From: a virus
Direction: 5' to 3' (one strand)
Length of the DNA: 51,695 nucleotides
IMG/VR virus record: IMGVR_UViG_3300048930_000724
Span: 1-51,695 of that record
A model generated the notes under the pieces. The model had not been told where the DNA came from. It saw only the letters and a program-made list of their open reading frames with translations, and did no database searches. This document shows, in pieces, positions 2,416 to 45,995 of the stretch. The stretch's first letter is position 1. The number at the start of each line of letters is the position of its first letter. The translations under genes and the position numbers were made by a program.

Positions 2416-3948
2416 ATGGATGAGACTGATCAGATCGTAGATGCATGGCTGCCGCCGCTTTCACCAAAGCAGAAACAGCTATTCGACTGCTACAAACGTT
2501 ACATTCTTTGCGCAGGCGGGAGAAGAAACGGAAAAACGCTAGGGGTTTGTCATAAGGTGTTCCGGCACCTCATCGAAACCCCGGGAGCCCGTGTGGCCCT
2601 CATCGCCACCACCATCAAATCCGCCAAGGAAGGTGGCTCTTTCGCTGACCTAATCGATTATGCTTACCCGATCTGGTATGACGCCAACATTTGGGGTGCA
2701 GGCGGGCGTATCGAATACACCAGTAAAAGCGGTAATGGCGAGCCCGGTCCCCGCATGGATGCTGCCACCCGCACTTCGAGTTTCCGTATTCGAAACCTTT
2801 ATGGGGGCGAATCAGAGCTAGTCTTGTTCTCGATCGACAACGAAAACCAGATTGAGTCCATCACCAAGTCCAAACGGTTCTCCATGGTCTGGCTTTCAGA
2901 AGGATCGAACTTCAAATCGGACAAGGTCTTCAAAAACGTGGTGCAGATGCTGCGCATGACCCACCTCCGGAGGGAGGATCACCAATTGATCATCGACACC
3001 AATCCTGCTGAAGAAGGCGATGAACATTGGATTTACAAGAAGTGGTACGTGGATCGCCTGCGCGACACCCCTCCAAAAGAAATGGCTGAAAGTGACCACC
3101 CTATCACCCAGGCGGAATGGGAGATGAGCCGGCAGGAGTATGAACTGTTCGAGTTCCAGTTGGAGGATAACCCGTTCCTGACCCCATTCGAAATCGCGGA
3201 ACTGAAAGCAACCAACTGCGATAACCAGGGCGAGTATGACCGGAACATTCTGGGCAAATGGGTCAAAGGATTCGGACTCCGCGGGAAGGTCTTCGCAGAC
3301 ATTCTCCTGCCGGAAAAACATTTCCTCGGGGGCGACGATGAAGGGATCGATGTTGACGAAGCGGCGGTCGACATGATCGGCGGCTGGGACATGGGGAAAA
3401 AGAATCATGCCGGGGTGATTGTCGAGCCTCGCATGTATAACGGTCGCATCCATTACATGGTGCTGGATGAATGTGTCGTGCTGGATGAACAGATGAGCAT
3501 CCACGAGTTCGCCTACGAAATGTGGGAGAAGATCCAAAAACTCGAGCGGTTCTACCAGAAGCGATTCAACTGGCGCCACTGGTCGGATAACTCCGCGTTC
3601 AATTACAATCCCCATTCCGGTGACCTGGATTCCACCATCGTGTTCAACGCCACCGAAGGGAATGTCATCCTGGAAGCCGCCCATAAACCAAACAACTCCG
3701 TGGAAACCGGTGTAAAGTTCATGCGGCAACTCCTGTTCGAGCAGCGCCTGTTCGTGGGTGGAAACTGCCCGCGCATCCGCGAGATGCTCCAGGGGATCAC
3801 CGAGAAGGACGTGGAAGACGATACCCACCTAAAGCATCCGTTCGACGCCTTGCGTTACGTGATCTACATGGAGGAACGGAAGTATTACTTCGAAACCGCC
3901 CCGCGCGCTATTCACCGATCCTCCACCAACTTCATTCACGTTTCGTGA
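2416..3948 (+). CDS. terL: Terminase large subunit (TerL)
   Basis: This is the ATP-driven DNA-packaging motor and headful or end-cutting nuclease. The 510-residue length fits the family. Near the N-terminus is a Walker A loop, GGRRNGKT (residues 34-41). A Walker B-like stretch ending LSEG follows (SMVWLSEG, near residue 160). The C-terminal half has the RNase H-fold nuclease pattern, with acidic residues in GGWDMGKKNHAG (about 324), HWSDNSAFN (about 390) and HPFDALRY (about 476). The start at 2416 has no Shine-Dalgarno and lies just downstream of a candidate promoter. The last 17 bases overlap the convergent HTH gene. No obvious small terminase lies directly upstream; the HTH gene at 3932-4261 or the coiled-coil protein at 16364-16879 could fill that role. 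Confidence 0.93.
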   Translation: MDETDQIVDAWLPPLSPKQKQLFDCYKRYILCAGGRRNGKTLGVCHKVFRHLIETPGARVALIATTIKSAKEGGSFADLIDYAYPIWYDANIWGAGGRIEYTSKSGNGEPGPRMDAATRTSSFRIRNLYGGESELVLFSIDNENQIESITKSKRFSMVWLSEGSNFKSDKVFKNVVQMLRMTHLRREDHQLIIDTNPAEEGDEHWIYKKWYVDRLRDTPPKEMAESDHPITQAEWEMSRQEYELFEFQLEDNPFLTPFEIAELKATNCDNQGEYDRNILGKWVKGFGLRGKVFADILLPEKHFLGGDDEGIDVDEAAVDMIGGWDMGKKNHAGVIVEPRMYNGRIHYMVLDECVVLDEQMSIHEFAYEMWEKIQKLERFYQKRFNWRHWSDNSAFNYNPHSGDLDSTIVFNATEGNVILEAAHKPNNSVETGVKFMRQLLFEQRLFVGGNCPRIREMLQGITEKDVEDDTHLKHPFDALRYVIYMEERKYYFETAPRAIHRSSTNFIHVS

Positions 3949-22089: not shown

Positions 22090-22309
22090 GTCTTTAACGT
22101 TATGGGAAAACTTTTCCTATTGTAAGCTAGGATATTCCCTCATACAACTGACCACGTAAGCACGTAAGACGTTGGCCCTCAGAAAGCCAAGAATGAACCT
22201 GAGTTTAACGATTTCCCTGTCAGCCGCGGATGTATAAGGTTGGCGCCCGCCTTCCGAATTTCTGAGCTTCCGCGTGCTGGCAGGGGATTTTTTCGAAATC
22301 AAGCCCTGT
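22090..22309 (+). other. Non-coding gap with short repeats
   Basis: 220 bp without a gene. It contains a GGAAAA-C-TTTTCC inverted repeat (around 22110-22122), a direct repeat of CACGTAAG (around 22152-22167) and a small hairpin TTGGC-N9-GCCAA. It precedes an HNH nuclease gene. It may hold a promoter or structured leader. I could not identify a named RNA family. Confidence 0.4.
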
Positions 22310-22786
22310 ATGAGCAAAACGACCCCCAGCGCCTACGCGCTCAAACTCAAGGATCCCCGTTGGCAGAGAAAGAGATTGGAGATTTTCAACAGGGATGGTT
22401 TCGCTTGTCGATTCTGCGGGAACAAAGAATCCACACTTCACGTCCATCACCTTCAATATCAATGGGGTAAAGACCCGTGGGATTACGAATCCGGTCACCT
22501 TCTAACACTGTGCGCAGACTGCCATGAAACCGAAACCGCGCTCCGTAAAGAATCTGAGCAAAAACTTTTAGAACTTCTTCGTATTACTGTATTTGCGACT
22601 GCCACGGATGTCGACGAACTAGCGAACACCATCTACATGCGCGCAAGCAACACCGGACTTCCATTCGGAACGGTTGTTTCTGCGATCGAATTTGCCCTTC
22701 GTGATGGTGAATACATAAACAGATACCTCGCTCACAGGGAACAGGTTAGGGGTAAAAAATCATCCGAAAATGGAGGCGGTAAGTGA
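22310..22786 (+). CDS. HNH endonuclease
   Basis: 158 residues from the ATG at 22310 (CTGTATGAGC). Classic HNH layout: a CRFCGN zinc pair, the VHHLQY histidines, then LCADCHE closing the second zinc pair and supplying the last His. A helical C-terminal tail follows. It could be a free-standing homing endonuclease or a replication or packaging nicking enzyme. It overlaps the next gene by GTGA, so it is not a simple insert between transcription units. Confidence 0.85.
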   Translation: MSKTTPSAYALKLKDPRWQRKRLEIFNRDGFACRFCGNKESTLHVHHLQYQWGKDPWDYESGHLLTLCADCHETETALRKESEQKLLELLRITVFATATDVDELANTIYMRASNTGLPFGTVVSAIEFALRDGEYINRYLAHREQVRGKKSSENGGGK

Positions 22787-23583
22787 GCATCCAAAGAGAA
22801 GATCTCAGAAAGGTGAACGTTATCTTTGTCCATTCCGACATTGATGACCTCGGCCTAAGTCTCTACGAATTCAGGATTTACGCCCACATCGCAAGGAGAG
22901 CGGGGGACGGGGAATGCTTCCCTTCCATTTCGGCAATTGCAAAACACTGCAAATGCTCCGAGGACACCGCCAGGGAAACGATCCAGCATTTGATCAACTA
23001 CAAGCTGATTTCCCGGGAAGATCGACCAGGAACGTCCCCCCTCTACAGGCTGACATCCTCGAAGGAGTGGAACCGGGAACTGGTTGGCACTTTTGAGTCC
23101 AAAAGGAACACCCGAAGGAGAGCACCAAAAACCGACACCCCTCCGGACATAGGGGAGGGGTTGTTTACCCCTCCGGACATAGGGGAGGGGTGCGGACATG
23201 GGGGAGGGCACCCCTCCGGACATAGGGGAGGGCACCCCTCCGGACATAGGGGAGAGGAAGTACATCCAATTAAGTTAATCCAATCTGAGGTAATCCAAGA
23301 TAGCCCCAAGGCGACGTTCCACGCCCAGTTCATCGACATCTGGTGCAGGCGATTTCAGGAGAAGTTTGGATTCAAATATTTGTTCCAACGGGACAAAGAC
23401 GGCAAAGCGGTAAAAAATCTTTCCTCTGCTGGCGAAGACCCCAAAACCCTTGTCGACATCGCTGAACGGGGTTGGTTCCTGAAGGAAAACAATTTTCTGC
23501 AGGACCAGAGCAGAACGATCTGTGGGTTTGCCAGCAAGATCAACGAGATACGAACCGCAACAACCAAAAAACAAGTCTGGTAA
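22783..23583 (+). CDS. Winged-helix replication initiator-like protein
   Basis: 266 residues, GTG start overlapping the HNH stop. The N-terminal part (about residues 25-90) is a winged helix-turn-helix (ISAIAKHCKCSEDTARETIQ, then LISREDRPG), as in phage O-type or DnaD-like initiators. A low-complexity linker (about 119-160) is encoded by a DNA iteron array. The C-terminal domain (about 170-260, WCRRFQEKFGFKYLF) resembles loader-interacting tails. The gene immediately precedes the primase-helicase. The same layout, with the origin inside the initiator gene, is known from lambda O. The initiator role is inferred. Confidence 0.72.
   Translation: MSIQREDLRKVNVIFVHSDIDDLGLSLYEFRIYAHIARRAGDGECFPSISAIAKHCKCSEDTARETIQHLINYKLISREDRPGTSPLYRLTSSKEWNRELVGTFESKRNTRRRAPKTDTPPDIGEGLFTPPDIGEGCGHGGGHPSGHRGGHPSGHRGEEVHPIKLIQSEVIQDSPKATFHAQFIDIWCRRFQEKFGFKYLFQRDKDGKAVKNLSSAGEDPKTLVDIAERGWFLKENNFLQDQSRTICGFASKINEIRTATTKKQVW
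23137..23256 (+). repeat. Iteron array, probable replication origin
   Basis: Five copies of a unit close to CCCCTCCGGACATAGGGG. The GGACAT cores lie at 23145, 23175, 23194, 23218 and 23242 (spacing 30, 19, 24, 24). The third copy is degenerate. Each unit is itself an inverted repeat (CCCCTCC / GGAGGGG). The 19-bp step shifts the reading frame, so copies 1-2 encode PPDIGEG while copies 4-5 encode HPSGHRG. The DNA, not the protein, is therefore what is conserved. Confidence 0.75.
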
Positions 23584-23589
23584 CTCATC

Positions 23590-25473
23590 ATGCTGTCGGC
23601 ATCTGAAATCAAAGTACGGCTCGCGGCGCGCGCGGGGGAAGTGGCGCGGCACCTTCTGCCCGGTGGGCGCATGGAAGCCGGCAATTGGTGCGTGGGCTCG
23701 CCCGCCGGGGAAAAGGGTGATTCCATGCGGGTCCAGATCACCGGCAGCCACGCGGGGCTCTGGGCGGATTTCGCGGGCAGCGACAAAGGCGACCTCCTGG
23801 ACCTGTGGGCGTGCGTCCGCGGGATCAGCCTTGGGCAAGCCCTCAAGGAAGCGAAATCATGGCTTGGCATTGCGGATCCCATCTCATCCGTGCCGGCCAA
23901 AAAATTCTCCCGCCCGAAACCGGAGAACATCATCCGCCTGCGCGAGACACCGGAAACCAAAGTCGAAAAGTATCTGACCGACGAACGCAAGCTGAGCAGG
24001 GACACCATCCTCAAGTTTCTCGTGGGGGCGAGGAATTCCCCGTCCGGCAAAGGGATGGAAATCGTCTACCCCAGCTTCGAGCCCGGGAAGATGGCGATCC
24101 CGGGAAAAGAGAACGAGCAGGCGATCGGGAAACTGGCATCGGTCAAATACATCGCGCTCAATCGGACACCGGATGGGAAGAAGATCATCACCCAGGAACC
24201 GAATTGCGCGCCGGTTCTGTTCGGCTGGCAGGCGTTCACTCTGGGTTCACGCACCGCCATCATCTGCGAGGGCCAGATCGACGCCATGACGTGGCACCAA
24301 TGGGGCTACGAAGCGTTGTCCGTCCCGAACGGCACAGGCGACACCGAGAACTGGATCAGCTACGAGTGGGACAACCTCGCGTGCTTCGACACCATCTACC
24401 TGTCCTTCGACATGGATGAACCCGGGATGGATGCGGTAGTCAAGGTGGCCAAGCGTCTCGGGATCCATCGGTGCCTCATCGTCAAACTGCCGATGAAAGA
24501 CGCGAACGAATGCCTGACCAAAGGGGTGCCGTTCGAGCAAATCGTCCAGGCGATCAATGGCGCGCGTGCCATCACCCCGAATGAAATCAAGAAAGCCTCT
24601 GATTTTCGCGCACAGGTCCATGCCCAGATTCGAGGCGAGGAAGAAGAAAGTGTCGGGCTGAAAACCAAACTGTTCGGACCACGATTTCGGTTGCGGCCGG
24701 CGGAAGTGACGATCTGGACGGGACACACCTCGCACGGCAAATCATCCGTGCTCAAGCAATTGATGGTGGAAGCGCTGATAGCCGGGGAAGGAGTGGCGAT
24801 CGGGAGCTTCGAGGAGAAGGGCCCGACAATGGTGAAGAAGATGGGATGCTGCATCGCCTTCAAGGGGGAGAAGGAAATCACCCATGAGGAAATGGACCAG
24901 ATCATCGACTGGATGGGGGACAAGTTGTGGATTTACGATGTGTTCGGGGTGATGAAGCGGGATCGGCTCGAGGAGTTGATGAAGTATTCCGTGCAGCGCC
25001 ATGGCGTGAAACACATCGTCATCGACTCGATCATGAAGTGCGACCTGTCGAGTGAGGATTACGAGTCACAGCGCCAGTTCCTGAACTTCCTGTGCGGGTT
25101 CGCGCATGATTACGATGTCCACATTCATGTGGTGGGGCACCCGCGGAAAATGAGCGGGGACGACACACCCCCAGGGGTGCTGGACGTGCATGGCGGCCAG
25201 GCGGTGACCGCACAACCCGACAACGTGGTGATCGTCTGGCGCAACAAGGAGAAAGAGAAGGAACGCGAAGACGGGAAGTTGCCCGATCACCGGGAGAACA
25301 CTGTGCCGGACACAGTGGTGTATGTCGGCAAGCAACGGGAAACGGGCGTGGAATTCCGGGTGAAATTGTGGATGAAGCAGAAATGCTTTCGGTTCACCCA
25401 GCATTACGGTGAGGGCCAACCCACATTCGAAGATTTCGGGATCATCCAACAACGAAGTGAAGAACCGTCATGA
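23590..25473 (+). CDS. TOPRIM primase-helicase (Twinkle/T7 gp4-like)
   Basis: 627 residues, replicative helicase with a primase-type N-terminal half. After a DNA-primase-like start (GDLLDLWACVRG, about residue 75) comes a TOPRIM domain: Glu227 in ICEGQIDAM, and Asp274 and Asp276 in FDMDEPGMD. The C-terminal RecA/DnaB fold has Walker A GHTSHGKSS (378-386), Walker B VIDSIMK (Asp479) and a motif-4-like GGQAVTAQPDNVVIVW. The N-terminal zinc finger with paired Cys residues of T7 gp4 is absent, as in Twinkle, so primase activity is uncertain. It follows the origin-bearing initiator gene by 6 bp and overlaps the next gene by ATGA. No DNA polymerase is found nearby. Confidence 0.9.
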   Translation: MLSASEIKVRLAARAGEVARHLLPGGRMEAGNWCVGSPAGEKGDSMRVQITGSHAGLWADFAGSDKGDLLDLWACVRGISLGQALKEAKSWLGIADPISSVPAKKFSRPKPENIIRLRETPETKVEKYLTDERKLSRDTILKFLVGARNSPSGKGMEIVYPSFEPGKMAIPGKENEQAIGKLASVKYIALNRTPDGKKIITQEPNCAPVLFGWQAFTLGSRTAIICEGQIDAMTWHQWGYEALSVPNGTGDTENWISYEWDNLACFDTIYLSFDMDEPGMDAVVKVAKRLGIHRCLIVKLPMKDANECLTKGVPFEQIVQAINGARAITPNEIKKASDFRAQVHAQIRGEEEESVGLKTKLFGPRFRLRPAEVTIWTGHTSHGKSSVLKQLMVEALIAGEGVAIGSFEEKGPTMVKKMGCCIAFKGEKEITHEEMDQIIDWMGDKLWIYDVFGVMKRDRLEELMKYSVQRHGVKHIVIDSIMKCDLSSEDYESQRQFLNFLCGFAHDYDVHIHVVGHPRKMSGDDTPPGVLDVHGGQAVTAQPDNVVIVWRNKEKEKEREDGKLPDHRENTVPDTVVYVGKQRETGVEFRVKLWMKQKCFRFTQHYGEGQPTFEDFGIIQQRSEEPS

Positions 25474-34492: not shown

Positions 34493-34828
34493 ATGAATAA
34501 ATGCCCGAAGTGTGGAAGTGAACTTAATCGGCGAGGTATAACCGGCAATAAGATATTCGGATGCGGCACCATAGTCTCTTTCGACAACATTCCTTTAGAG
34601 TTCTCGCGCAGATGTGCTGATTTCCGCATCACCGAACTCGAAGCCAAAGTCAAACGGCTGGAGGAGGCGTTGAAGCCGTTTGCGAGATGGGCTGCATATT
34701 ACAATCGGCCCACACCGAAACACGACAGTGCCAGAATCCACTTTTCGGTTAGCGATTTAGGAACAATCAGAATCACCGTCGGCGACCTTCGCAAAGCCGC
34801 CGCAGCTTTGGAGGATAAAAAACCATGA
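34493..34828 (+). CDS. Zinc-ribbon plus coiled-coil protein
   Basis: 111 residues from the ATG at 34493. CPKCGSEL opens the protein, a second Cys pair spans GCG and RRCADF, and a coiled coil (TELEAKVKRLEEALKPFARW) follows. Preceded by AAAGGCCACAA, a variant of the repeated leader. Function unknown. Confidence 0.6.
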   Translation: MNKCPKCGSELNRRGITGNKIFGCGTIVSFDNIPLEFSRRCADFRITELEAKVKRLEEALKPFARWAAYYNRPTPKHDSARIHFSVSDLGTIRITVGDLRKAAAALEDKKP

Positions 34829-35253
34829 ACCCTTTCACCTACTTCTACTTCGAAACCGAACAGTCAAAAATCCTGACCCCACCAGGCATCTTCATCCGCC
34901 GCGACCAGATCCTCGCGATCGTTCCCGGCGACGAAACCTGCTGCGTCATCGCCCTGCCCGCACCGTTCCAGGATCACACAGTCCTGCACGAGTCCGCCCA
35001 GGATGTCCTCCACCGACTCGCCCACACCTTCATCGCCAGGGTGATCCCCTGCCAGCAATGTAAAGACCCCACCCAATTCGCAGACGTCCTCAACCCCATC
35101 TGCCGGCAATGCAAAGAAAAGAACGCCCTCACCGAAAAACAGAAATCCGACCAGGAGGAAAACGCCCGCATCCTCGATAAAATCCTCCCACCGCTGCCCC
35201 AACACGATCCCCAACCCAACACCTGCCCAACCTGCGGTCACGAACCAATATGA
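34825..35253 (+). CDS. Unknown protein with two zinc ribbons
   Basis: 142 residues. An N-terminal beta domain (FIRRDQILAIVPGDE) precedes CQQC...CRQC (about residues 75-95) and a terminal CPTCGHE. The coding strand is strikingly rich in C and A and poor in G, which continues to about 36140. Function unknown. Confidence 0.6.
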   Translation: MNPFTYFYFETEQSKILTPPGIFIRRDQILAIVPGDETCCVIALPAPFQDHTVLHESAQDVLHRLAHTFIARVIPCQQCKDPTQFADVLNPICRQCKEKNALTEKQKSDQEENARILDKILPPLPQHDPQPNTCPTCGHEPI

Positions 35254-35615
35254 AAGACCCACAAGCCCATCTCTGCGCCGGATGCGGAGAACCCATCCCC
35301 AAAAAGGGCCAGCACTGCGCCTGCAAAAAAGAACAACGCGTCGTCTGTGCCGCCAACCGATCCAAGGTCACCGGCAAAATCATCTGCGGAGCCCGCCATT
35401 GGGATAACATCATGCGCCAGCAGGTCCAATGGCTCGAAGGCCAACCCGGTGACCGCAAAATGCCCGACGAATGGATCGGCGCCGAACAAGGCTTCATCGA
35501 TCAGTTCGGACAATTCCTCACCCGCGAAGAAGCCTACCAAATCGCCGCTAAACAAAACCAAATCCTCTACCCAGGATTCGACAAGGGAACCCTCTACTCC
35601 GAAGACATCTACTAG
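35250..35615 (+). CDS. Phage zinc protein with EQGFIDQFG motif
   Basis: 121 residues. An N-terminal ribbon (CAGCGEPI...CAC) is followed by IICGARHWDNIM and EQGFIDQFGQFLTREEAYQI, a motif common in small phage and prophage proteins of unknown function, ending LYSEDIY. Recognised as a widespread family but with no assigned role. Confidence 0.65.
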   Translation: MKDPQAHLCAGCGEPIPKKGQHCACKKEQRVVCAANRSKVTGKIICGARHWDNIMRQQVQWLEGQPGDRKMPDEWIGAEQGFIDQFGQFLTREEAYQIAAKQNQILYPGFDKGTLYSEDIY

Positions 35616-35618
35616 CCC

Positions 35619-35714
35619 ATGAACCCCATCTACAAAGCCGGTAACAAATTCATCGACCTCCTCCACGCCATCCGCACCGCCACCATCAAAGCCAAATCCC
35701 CTGTTACGCATTAA
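35619..35714 (+). CDS. Tiny ORF (31 residues)
   Basis: MNPIYKAGNKFIDLLHAIRT opens a short basic peptide, 3 bp after the previous stop. It shares the C-rich composition of its neighbours. Coding status is uncertain. Confidence 0.35.
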   Translation: MNPIYKAGNKFIDLLHAIRTATIKAKSPVTH

Positions 35715-35763
35715 CGAAACCACATCCTTGACCATTAACGAAAGTCCCCCATCATTAACGAAA
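35709..35763 (+). repeat. Three direct repeats of CATTAACGAAA
   Basis: Identical 11-mers at 35709, 35733 and 35753 (spacing 24 and 20) fill the short gap before the gene at 35766. They may be binding sites for a regulator or initiator. They do not match the GC-rich iterons at 23137-23256. Confidence 0.6.
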
Positions 35764-35765
35764 CT

Positions 35766-36143
35766 ATGGAACAAACATCATCACCATGCCTCTGCGGCTG
35801 CGGCTCACTTGTCCCACAACCTCCCACCGGCCGCGCCAAAAAATACCTCTCCGACTCCCACCGAGTCGCCCACTTCAACCGCAATAAAGCCGCCCTCGCC
35901 GCCGCTAAACAACCCAAAACCACCCCAACCAACCCCACCCAAACACAATCACAACACACTGCAAACACCAGTCTTACACACCAAAACGGCATAGACTACT
36001 CAGTGCCAGAAAAATCCCTCCCAAAAGAAATCTGGCCCTACATGCCTGTCCAATCCCACCAATCCCTCCCCTCCCTCCTCCAGTTCGAACAAGTCCTCCA
36101 CCACCGCAAACCACTCCGAGACGAATCCAAATGCCAGTTCTAA
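35766..36143 (+). CDS. Zinc-finger protein with low-complexity tail
   Basis: 125 residues. CLCGCGSLVPQ...GRAKKYLSDSHRVAHFNR is a compact treble-clef-like zinc unit seen in phage small proteins. The tail is Thr/Pro/Gln-rich. This is the last gene before the long gap. Strong C-over-G skew on the coding strand. Confidence 0.6.
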   Translation: MEQTSSPCLCGCGSLVPQPPTGRAKKYLSDSHRVAHFNRNKAALAAAKQPKTTPTNPTQTQSQHTANTSLTHQNGIDYSVPEKSLPKEIWPYMPVQSHQSLPSLLQFEQVLHHRKPLRDESKCQF

Positions 36144-38956: not shown

Positions 38957-39286
38957 ATGGAAATGACAATAACAGAGAAAAGGTCAGTGGTTATCGTGGA
39001 GAATGAAAGGGAGTTCTCCGCAACCCTGTTCAAACCGATTAACGGGCGGACCGCTGACGGATACGTGCGGAAGCGTGGCAAGCGGTTCTGTGATGTTTTT
39101 ATAGCTGGCAAAATTTGCAGAATTAACCGCTTCGGGGTTTGGTGCGAACAGGGGAGCGATGGACGATGGACTTTCGCTAATCTCTCCCAGTTTGGTTACG
39201 CGGCTTTGTGTGATGCGGCCGACGCTTTAGCCGTTAGCACAAGTTGGGAACGCAAGGAAAAAGAATACACGTTTTCCCGCTACTAG
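38957..39286 (+). CDS. Unknown protein of the leader array
   Basis: 109 residues from the ATG at 38957 (MEMTITEKRSVVIVENEREF). A small beta-rich protein with VFIAGKICRINRFGVWCEQG. No family recognised. Confidence 0.55.
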   Translation: MEMTITEKRSVVIVENEREFSATLFKPINGRTADGYVRKRGKRFCDVFIAGKICRINRFGVWCEQGSDGRWTFANLSQFGYAALCDAADALAVSTSWERKEKEYTFSRY

Positions 39287-45143: not shown

Positions 45144-45995
45144 ATGATCTACCTTTACCTTGATGAAATTAAGGGGGTGCTTTCGGAGAGCACCGTCGAG
45201 CAGTACACCGAACGGTTGCGCCGATTCGATTACTGGATGACCGCCAATGCCCGCCGCGATTACAACCGGGAAACGGTGGTCGAGTTCATCAAGCACATGC
45301 AGCGGAAGGAAGTCGGCAAAGCCTCCATCGCCCTGCACAAAGCCGCGGTGTCCGCGTTCTATTCCTGGCTGGTGGAGAACGGGAAGATCAAATCCAACCC
45401 CGTCAAGAACCTGCGCATGGGGCGTTACCGCTCCCAGAAGAAGCAGGACGATTGCCCGATCACCAAAGAGGAATACGAGAAGATCAAAGCGGCCTGCCGG
45501 CAGAGCAAGATACGATTCGATTTCTGGGAAGGGGCCACCATCATCGGCTGGAACACCGGCCTGCGACTCGGGGACATTGCCTGCATGGAATGGCAGAGCA
45601 TCAGCCTGGCCTACGGCAAGATCGAACTCGAGCCGAACAAGACCAAGCGATTGCAGAAGCGAGTCGAGATCCCGATCGCGCCAGAACTGAACCGCTGGTT
45701 GCAGATGAACTACCCGCTCCGGATCGATGACAAGTTGTTCCCGGCCATGTATGCGGAATACGCGGAGAACGGCGCCAAGCATCTCAGCCAGCAATTCACC
45801 CGCATCTGCGAGAAAGCGGGGGTGGAAGGGAAAACATTCCATCTGTTGCGGCACTCACTGGTGACGCGGTTACTGAGCAATGGCGTGCCCGCATCGATCG
45901 TGTCCGGGATCACCGGCCAGACATTGCCCGTGATCGACCGCTACAATCACCCCAGCTTTTCGGACAAAGCCAAAGCCATGATGCACCTGGTATGA
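45144..45995 (+). CDS. Tyrosine recombinase (integrase-like)
   Basis: 283 residues. The N-terminal SAM-like domain (about 1-90) is followed by the catalytic domain with Arg141 (NTGLRLGD), a KTKR lysine, His233-x-x-Arg236 with His237 (HLLRH) and nucleophile Tyr267 (DRYNHP). The usual His before the Tyr is Gln (GQ, about 259), tolerated in some members. It could integrate the phage, resolve dimers or invert DNA. It is embedded in an operon and no attP-like repeat pair is seen next to it. ATG overlap with the next gene. Confidence 0.9.
   Translation: MIYLYLDEIKGVLSESTVEQYTERLRRFDYWMTANARRDYNRETVVEFIKHMQRKEVGKASIALHKAAVSAFYSWLVENGKIKSNPVKNLRMGRYRSQKKQDDCPITKEEYEKIKAACRQSKIRFDFWEGATIIGWNTGLRLGDIACMEWQSISLAYGKIELEPNKTKRLQKRVEIPIAPELNRWLQMNYPLRIDDKLFPAMYAEYAENGAKHLSQQFTRICEKAGVEGKTFHLLRHSLVTRLLSNGVPASIVSGITGQTLPVIDRYNHPSFSDKAKAMMHLV

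Follow-up and report, generated by a model that had tools for sequence, protein, structure and literature searches.

What is an array of inverted repeats doing in the middle of a phage gene for a replication initiator, and why do its copies not keep to one reading frame? The window, by which we mean the whole 51,695-bp stretch of viral DNA analysed here, contains a single tandem array (23136-23254, Tandem Repeats Finder), and this array lies inside the initiator gene. The source is a tailed, probably temperate phage, because genes for a terminase large subunit and an integrase are both present. No phage match was found for the terminase, and among the bacterial sequences closest to the initiator are several from Verrucomicrobial metagenome-assembled genomes (MAGs).

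Table. Coordinates of genes and repeat elements in the window.
Feature	Position	Strand	Remarks
Terminase large subunit gene	2416-3948		
HNH endonuclease gene	22274-22786	+	phrog_119 6.1e-15; directly upstream of the initiator gene, 4-nt overlap
Initiator gene	22783-23583	+	Pfam HTH_36 1.3e-14, DnaD_N 1.9e-6; PHROG replication initiation families
Iteron 1, CCCCTCCGGACATAGGGGAGGG	23138-23159	+	exact unit
Iteron 2	23168-23189	+	exact copy, 30 bp on
Iteron 3, right half CGGACATGGGGGAGGG	23193-23208	+	19 bp on; frame changes at this step
Iteron 4	23211-23232	+	exact copy, 24 bp on
Iteron 5	23235-23256	+	one mismatch, 24 bp on
Second repeat, weak first copy AAGTACATCC	23258-23267	+	3 mismatches to AAGGTAATCC; next copy 14 bp on, in a different frame
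Second repeat AAGTTAATCC	23272-23281	+	1 mismatch
Second repeat GAGGTAATCC	23287-23296	+	1 mismatch; 15 bp on
Toprim primase/helicase gene	23590-25473	+	phrog_239 8.3e-104; Toprim_2, AAA_25; directly downstream of the initiator gene
Integrase gene	45144-45995		

The initiator and its iteron array

The protein matches HTH_36 at 54.2 bits, against a Pfam cut-off of 25, and the replication initiation families phrog_270 (the best match, 4.4e-13), 1032, 428 and 391 of PHROG, whose models align to its winged-helix region; O-like PHROG matches extend from the winged helix into the linker. With its winged-helix domain and an adjoining helicase/primase gene, it belongs with the HTH_36 phage replication initiators of PHROG. 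No plasmid Rep family (TrfA, RepE and similar) matched it in Pfam or NCBIfam. Foldseek returned MarR-type winged helices with weak E-values as the best solved structures, and phage HTH proteins as the best viral matches. The winged-helix domain spans roughly residues 15-100, of which an AlphaFold2 model shows about 18-92 with confidence. It is followed by a disordered linker (about 110-172) and then by helices that form a C-terminal domain (about 175-264); pLDDT is about 90 or more in both domains and about 50 in the linker. Both of the repeat elements described below fall in the linker of this model, the iterons at codons 119-158 or so and a second repeat at about codons 159-171, and the linker peptide is therefore probably little constrained.

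The nearest homologues of the primase often adjoin initiators unrelated to that of the window, so the primase is no guide to the initiator. The HNH endonuclease gene is probably a neighbour and not part of any origin; HNH-like genes also directly precede the gene at the initiator position in L010, L011 and L020.

The iteron unit is 22-24 bp long and contains an inverted repeat (CCCCTCC...GGAGGGG). Its core, CGGACATRGGGGAG, begins at 23144, 23174, 23193, 23217 and 23241, at steps of 30, 19, 24 and 24 bp. A sequence-only reading of this DNA had counted five copies. There are indeed five core sites, but the third copy has lost its left arm CCCCTCC, carries 6 mismatches in 22 positions and keeps only its right half, so that the array (23138-23256) consists of four full copies and one half copy. 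Iterons 1, 2 and 4 are identical across 22 bp and iteron 5 differs by one mismatch. The same reading held that a 19-bp step shifts the frame and makes the repeats encode two peptides, and this is what we find: relative to the gene, the cores lie in phases 1, 1, 2, 2 and 2, with iterons 1-2 encoding TPPDIGEG and iterons 4-5 encoding HPSGHRG. Three out-of-frame pairs of 14-mers were observed; synonymous-codon shuffles averaged 0.18, and none of the 300 reached as many. In-frame pairs (3, against 1.57 in the shuffles) are unremarkable on their own.

A search of the whole contig found the unit nowhere outside the array, and a mobile repeat was rejected because the unit is confined to this one place. 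The sole other contig with a 17-mer match to the iteron core was L016, an unrelated viral contig in which a single CCCTCCGGACATAGGGGGAGGGG (L016:4921-4945) follows an HNH gene; we judged this match to be probably due to chance. From the window alone, a recent tandem duplication followed by an indel could not be excluded, and relatives were therefore needed.

Iteron arrays in related initiators

A single-sequence search of IMG/VR found no relatives of the initiator, and searches of Verrucomicrobial genomes gave few matches (3 of 388). Among the relatives that were recovered, those with a 35-50% identical winged helix have repeat arrays at the same place in the gene, in various frames and encoding different peptides. 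The earlier claim that the DNA is kept rather than the peptide is thus borne out by comparison. Frame-crossing arrays at this place occur in phages, on Deinococcus and cyanobacterial plasmids and in Verrucomicrobia; examples are L008, the Deinococcus plasmids L025 and L026, Nostoc L027, Verrucomicrobial L060 and L044, and viral L069, L070, L072 and L073. Out-of-frame copies exceeded shuffled expectation in L008, L025-L027, L030, L033, L035, L038-L040, L044, L057, L060, L070, L072 and L073; some relatives, L031 and L071, had in-frame repeats alone.

The iterons themselves diverge. On two Deinococcus plasmids that are near relatives they are of the ACCCCCCCGAAACGAAGGG type, and in viral L069, whose winged helix is 48% identical, they are of the ACCCCCCCGAAACAAAGGGAGGGG type and occupy three frames. 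The best matches to the 24-bp unit of the window were in L075 (20/24), L025 (18/24) and L069 (18/24), moderately above synonymous shuffles; the matches in L116 and L026 were not significant by the same comparison. In more remote relatives this position in the gene is also taken by iterons, but of quite another sequence.

Two groups of genes stand somewhat apart. In a Verrucomicrobiia MAG, G002 (L075, L078 and L080), several initiator-like open reading frames are about 495-599 residues long with two winged-helix matches per frame, and one genome has eight matches. Short cyanobacterial winged-helix genes of about 380-500 nt (L045, L047, L053, L055, L058, L061, L062, L066 and similar) have neither iterons nor the second repeat, and are possibly regulators derived from initiators.

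A second repeat beside the iterons

Directly 3' of the iterons, the window carries a second repeat at the DNA level, AAGGTAATCC, with copies at 23258, 23272 and 23287. The iterons reported by the sequence-only reading are real, but it overlooked this more conserved element next to them. The cluster (23258-23296) is the only one of its kind in the window on either strand, and it has the arrangement of the AAGGTAATCC subgroup defined here, in which two or three copies at intervals of 13-16 bp follow the iterons directly on the 3' side. Its GC content is 34%, compared with 64% in the 100 bp upstream, placing it at the 96th percentile of weak pairing within the initiator gene.

In a de novo search of 19 non-redundant relatives, AAGGTAATC ranked first of 12,018 9-mers as a local repeat, occurring in 10 of them. 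No 9-mer exceeded 3 loci in 20 synonymous-shuffled control sets, and in 500 shuffles the AAGGTAATC motif itself reached a mean of 0.89 loci and a maximum of 4. Because the same 19 relatives had defined the motif, it was then tested elsewhere. IMG/VR was scanned at the DNA level alone for AAGGTAHTCC occurring twice, 3-5 bp apart; of the 27 loci returned, 13 lie in winged-helix open reading frames (HMM E about 1e-19 or better), mostly directly 3' of repeat arrays. About ten of these 13 are independent, since L104 and L072 are one contig, and L091/L098 and L090/L109 are near-identical pairs. A permuted pattern of the same composition gave 16 loci, none in a winged-helix initiator. Finally, 14 further viral relatives were fetched by protein similarity only, and eight of them have the cluster (500 shuffles: mean 1.01, maximum 4). 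At these 14 loci it was absent from 112,764 bases of flanking DNA and from the minus strand of the genes.

Across 42 loci, whose members are not all phylogenetically independent, 27 have an array of the second repeat at two mismatches or fewer and 15 do not; looser versions can be seen by eye in several relatives, for example L119, L125 and L134. The steps between copies are 13 bp (10 cases), 14 bp (13), 15 bp (13) and 16 bp (2), and the consensus across loci is GAAGGTAATCCA. Copies lie in more than one frame at 18 of the 27 array-bearing loci, with all three frames used overall, and the encoded peptides vary accordingly (EGNP, EGIP, KVLP, KVIP and others). Mean GC content is 42% in the arrays, 55% in the gene as a whole and 58% in the upstream sequence. 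Within their genes the arrays occupy the stretch where pairing is weakest (mean percentile 0.97), and this holds for the Deinococcus genes too, at 65-69% GC.

A candidate replication origin

On these sequence comparisons, we consider it highly probable that positions 23138-23296 form a replication origin of the lambda/SPP1 type inside the linker-coding part of the initiator gene, in which variable iterons adjoin a conserved unwinding element. We infer that the winged helix would read the iterons and that the AAGGTAATCC side would open. Some observations weigh against this reading: iteron 3 is degenerate, all three copies of the second repeat in the window depart from the consensus, that repeat is missing at 15 of the 42 loci at the threshold used, the short cyanobacterial genes have neither array, the GC-skew minimum at 21-24 kb is only local, and the resemblance of iterons between relatives exceeds shuffles only moderately.

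The repeats might instead be operators by which the initiator controls its own operon, with replication beginning elsewhere. Winged-helix proteins of this fold are mostly regulators, as the MarR-type structural matches recall, and binding of the initiator to the repeats is required under either reading. Yet the array begins 355 bp and ends 474 bp into the gene, no promoter-like site was found on the plus strand between 22000 and 24000, and relatives repeat the arrangement of a mid-gene array, a weak-pairing repeat after it and adjoining helicase genes; we regard an operator as improbable. It is less probable still that the repeats belong to the protein, as a disordered linker of repetitive sequence, or that they arose by neutral slippage and do nothing as DNA. 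Linkers do tolerate repeats, copies 3-5 are spaced by exactly 24 bp, and L031 and L071 repeat in frame only, but the excess of out-of-frame copies over synonymous shuffles in the window and many relatives, and the occurrence of the AAGGTAATCC repeat in all three frames in several phyla, speak against both versions. That the array is a structured mRNA element controlling translation seems to us scarcely credible: the window array folds better than shuffled sequences (z = -3.6), as do those of L025 and L128, but relatives do not keep this folding strength (z = -0.2 in L117, -0.85 in L118 and -1.4 in L069), and where it occurs it follows from the dyads, as expected for protein-binding sites.

If the region is an origin, the N-terminal winged helix would bind the four to five dyad iterons as double-stranded DNA, and the resulting complex would strain the adjacent weak-pairing stretch until it opened at the AAGGTAATCC repeats spaced 13-16 bp apart. 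The toprim primase/helicase, the product of the next gene, could then be loaded onto one of the melted strands, which the initiator complex or the helicase would read; the C-terminal helical domain of the initiator may deliver it. Selection would act on the DNA and leave the linker peptide free, which is why the array could change frame.

The arrangement fits the plan of lambda, SPP1 and RK2, in which iterons lie beside an AT-rich unwinding element. In lambda and Stx phages, iterons and an AT-rich tract, the site of unwinding, lie in the middle of gene O, and in the Stx phages P27 and 933W two extra iterons add 13 residues to the O protein (PMC7466680). The annotated lambda iterons start at 39034, 39054, 39078 and 39101; the intervals of 20, 24 and 23 put them, too, in more than one frame. 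The likeness to lambda O proposed earlier therefore holds for the layout, with dyad iterons in mid-gene, repeats that cross frames and an adjacent AT-rich tract, but not for the protein, which matches only HTH_36 and DnaD_N in Pfam and no lambda O family model. The window also differs from lambda in iteron sequence, in having a toprim primase/helicase gene next instead of a P-type helicase loader, and in the conserved 13-16 bp repeat of its AT-rich side; no tandem cluster of AAGGTAATCC was found in lambda O or the lambdoid genes checked. With these differences, the region would be best described as working like ori-lambda.

In SPP1, oriL lies within gene 38 and pairs an AT-rich unwinding element with direct repeats to which gp38 binds (PMC6316719). 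The resemblance drawn here is one of layout; SPP1, unlike the window, also has oriR, a second origin, as well as a separate helicase loader. At RK2 oriV and at oriC, binding sites adjoin three to four AT-rich 13-mers (PMC4081077, PMC5043065), and TrfA of RK2 binds double-stranded iterons and, in a sequence-specific manner, one of the two strands of its four 13-mers (PMC4081077). Those origins share with the window the pairing of binding sites and short AT-rich repeats, but they lie outside the initiator gene and have other sequences.

A frame-crossing array inside a gene is thus already known from lambda. The constancy of the second repeat while the iterons vary suggests a conserved reader, the alternatives being a host factor or a purely physical role. 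We tentatively propose, as a possibility that falls somewhat short of an even chance, that a large family of initiators from phages and plasmids shares an unwinding element that is sequence-specific and so far undescribed, namely AAGGTAATCC every 13-16 bp. The iterons would change along with each initiator's recognition helix, but the opening sequence hardly varies among Verrucomicrobia, cyanobacteria, Deinococcus and environmental phages, and for that reason some conserved component of the machinery would read it in single-stranded form. Earlier descriptions of this repeat were not found among the matches listed in the open-access literature, nor in the descriptions of the PHROG replication initiation families, which are defined by protein. 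Variable iterons followed by AAGGTAATCC every 13-16 bp in a winged-helix gene may offer a signature, readable from sequence, for origins in uncultured phages and plasmids, and raise the question of whether a conserved strand-opening code exists separately from a variable iteron code.

Cumulative GC skew across the contig has a local minimum at 21-24 kb and its global minimum near 36-38 kb, the latter arising from a C-rich coding stretch (34800-36130) with the strongest skew dip of the contig (-0.2 to -0.3). Within that stretch, three ATTAACGAAA repeats lie near 35710-35766, shortly before a short gene.
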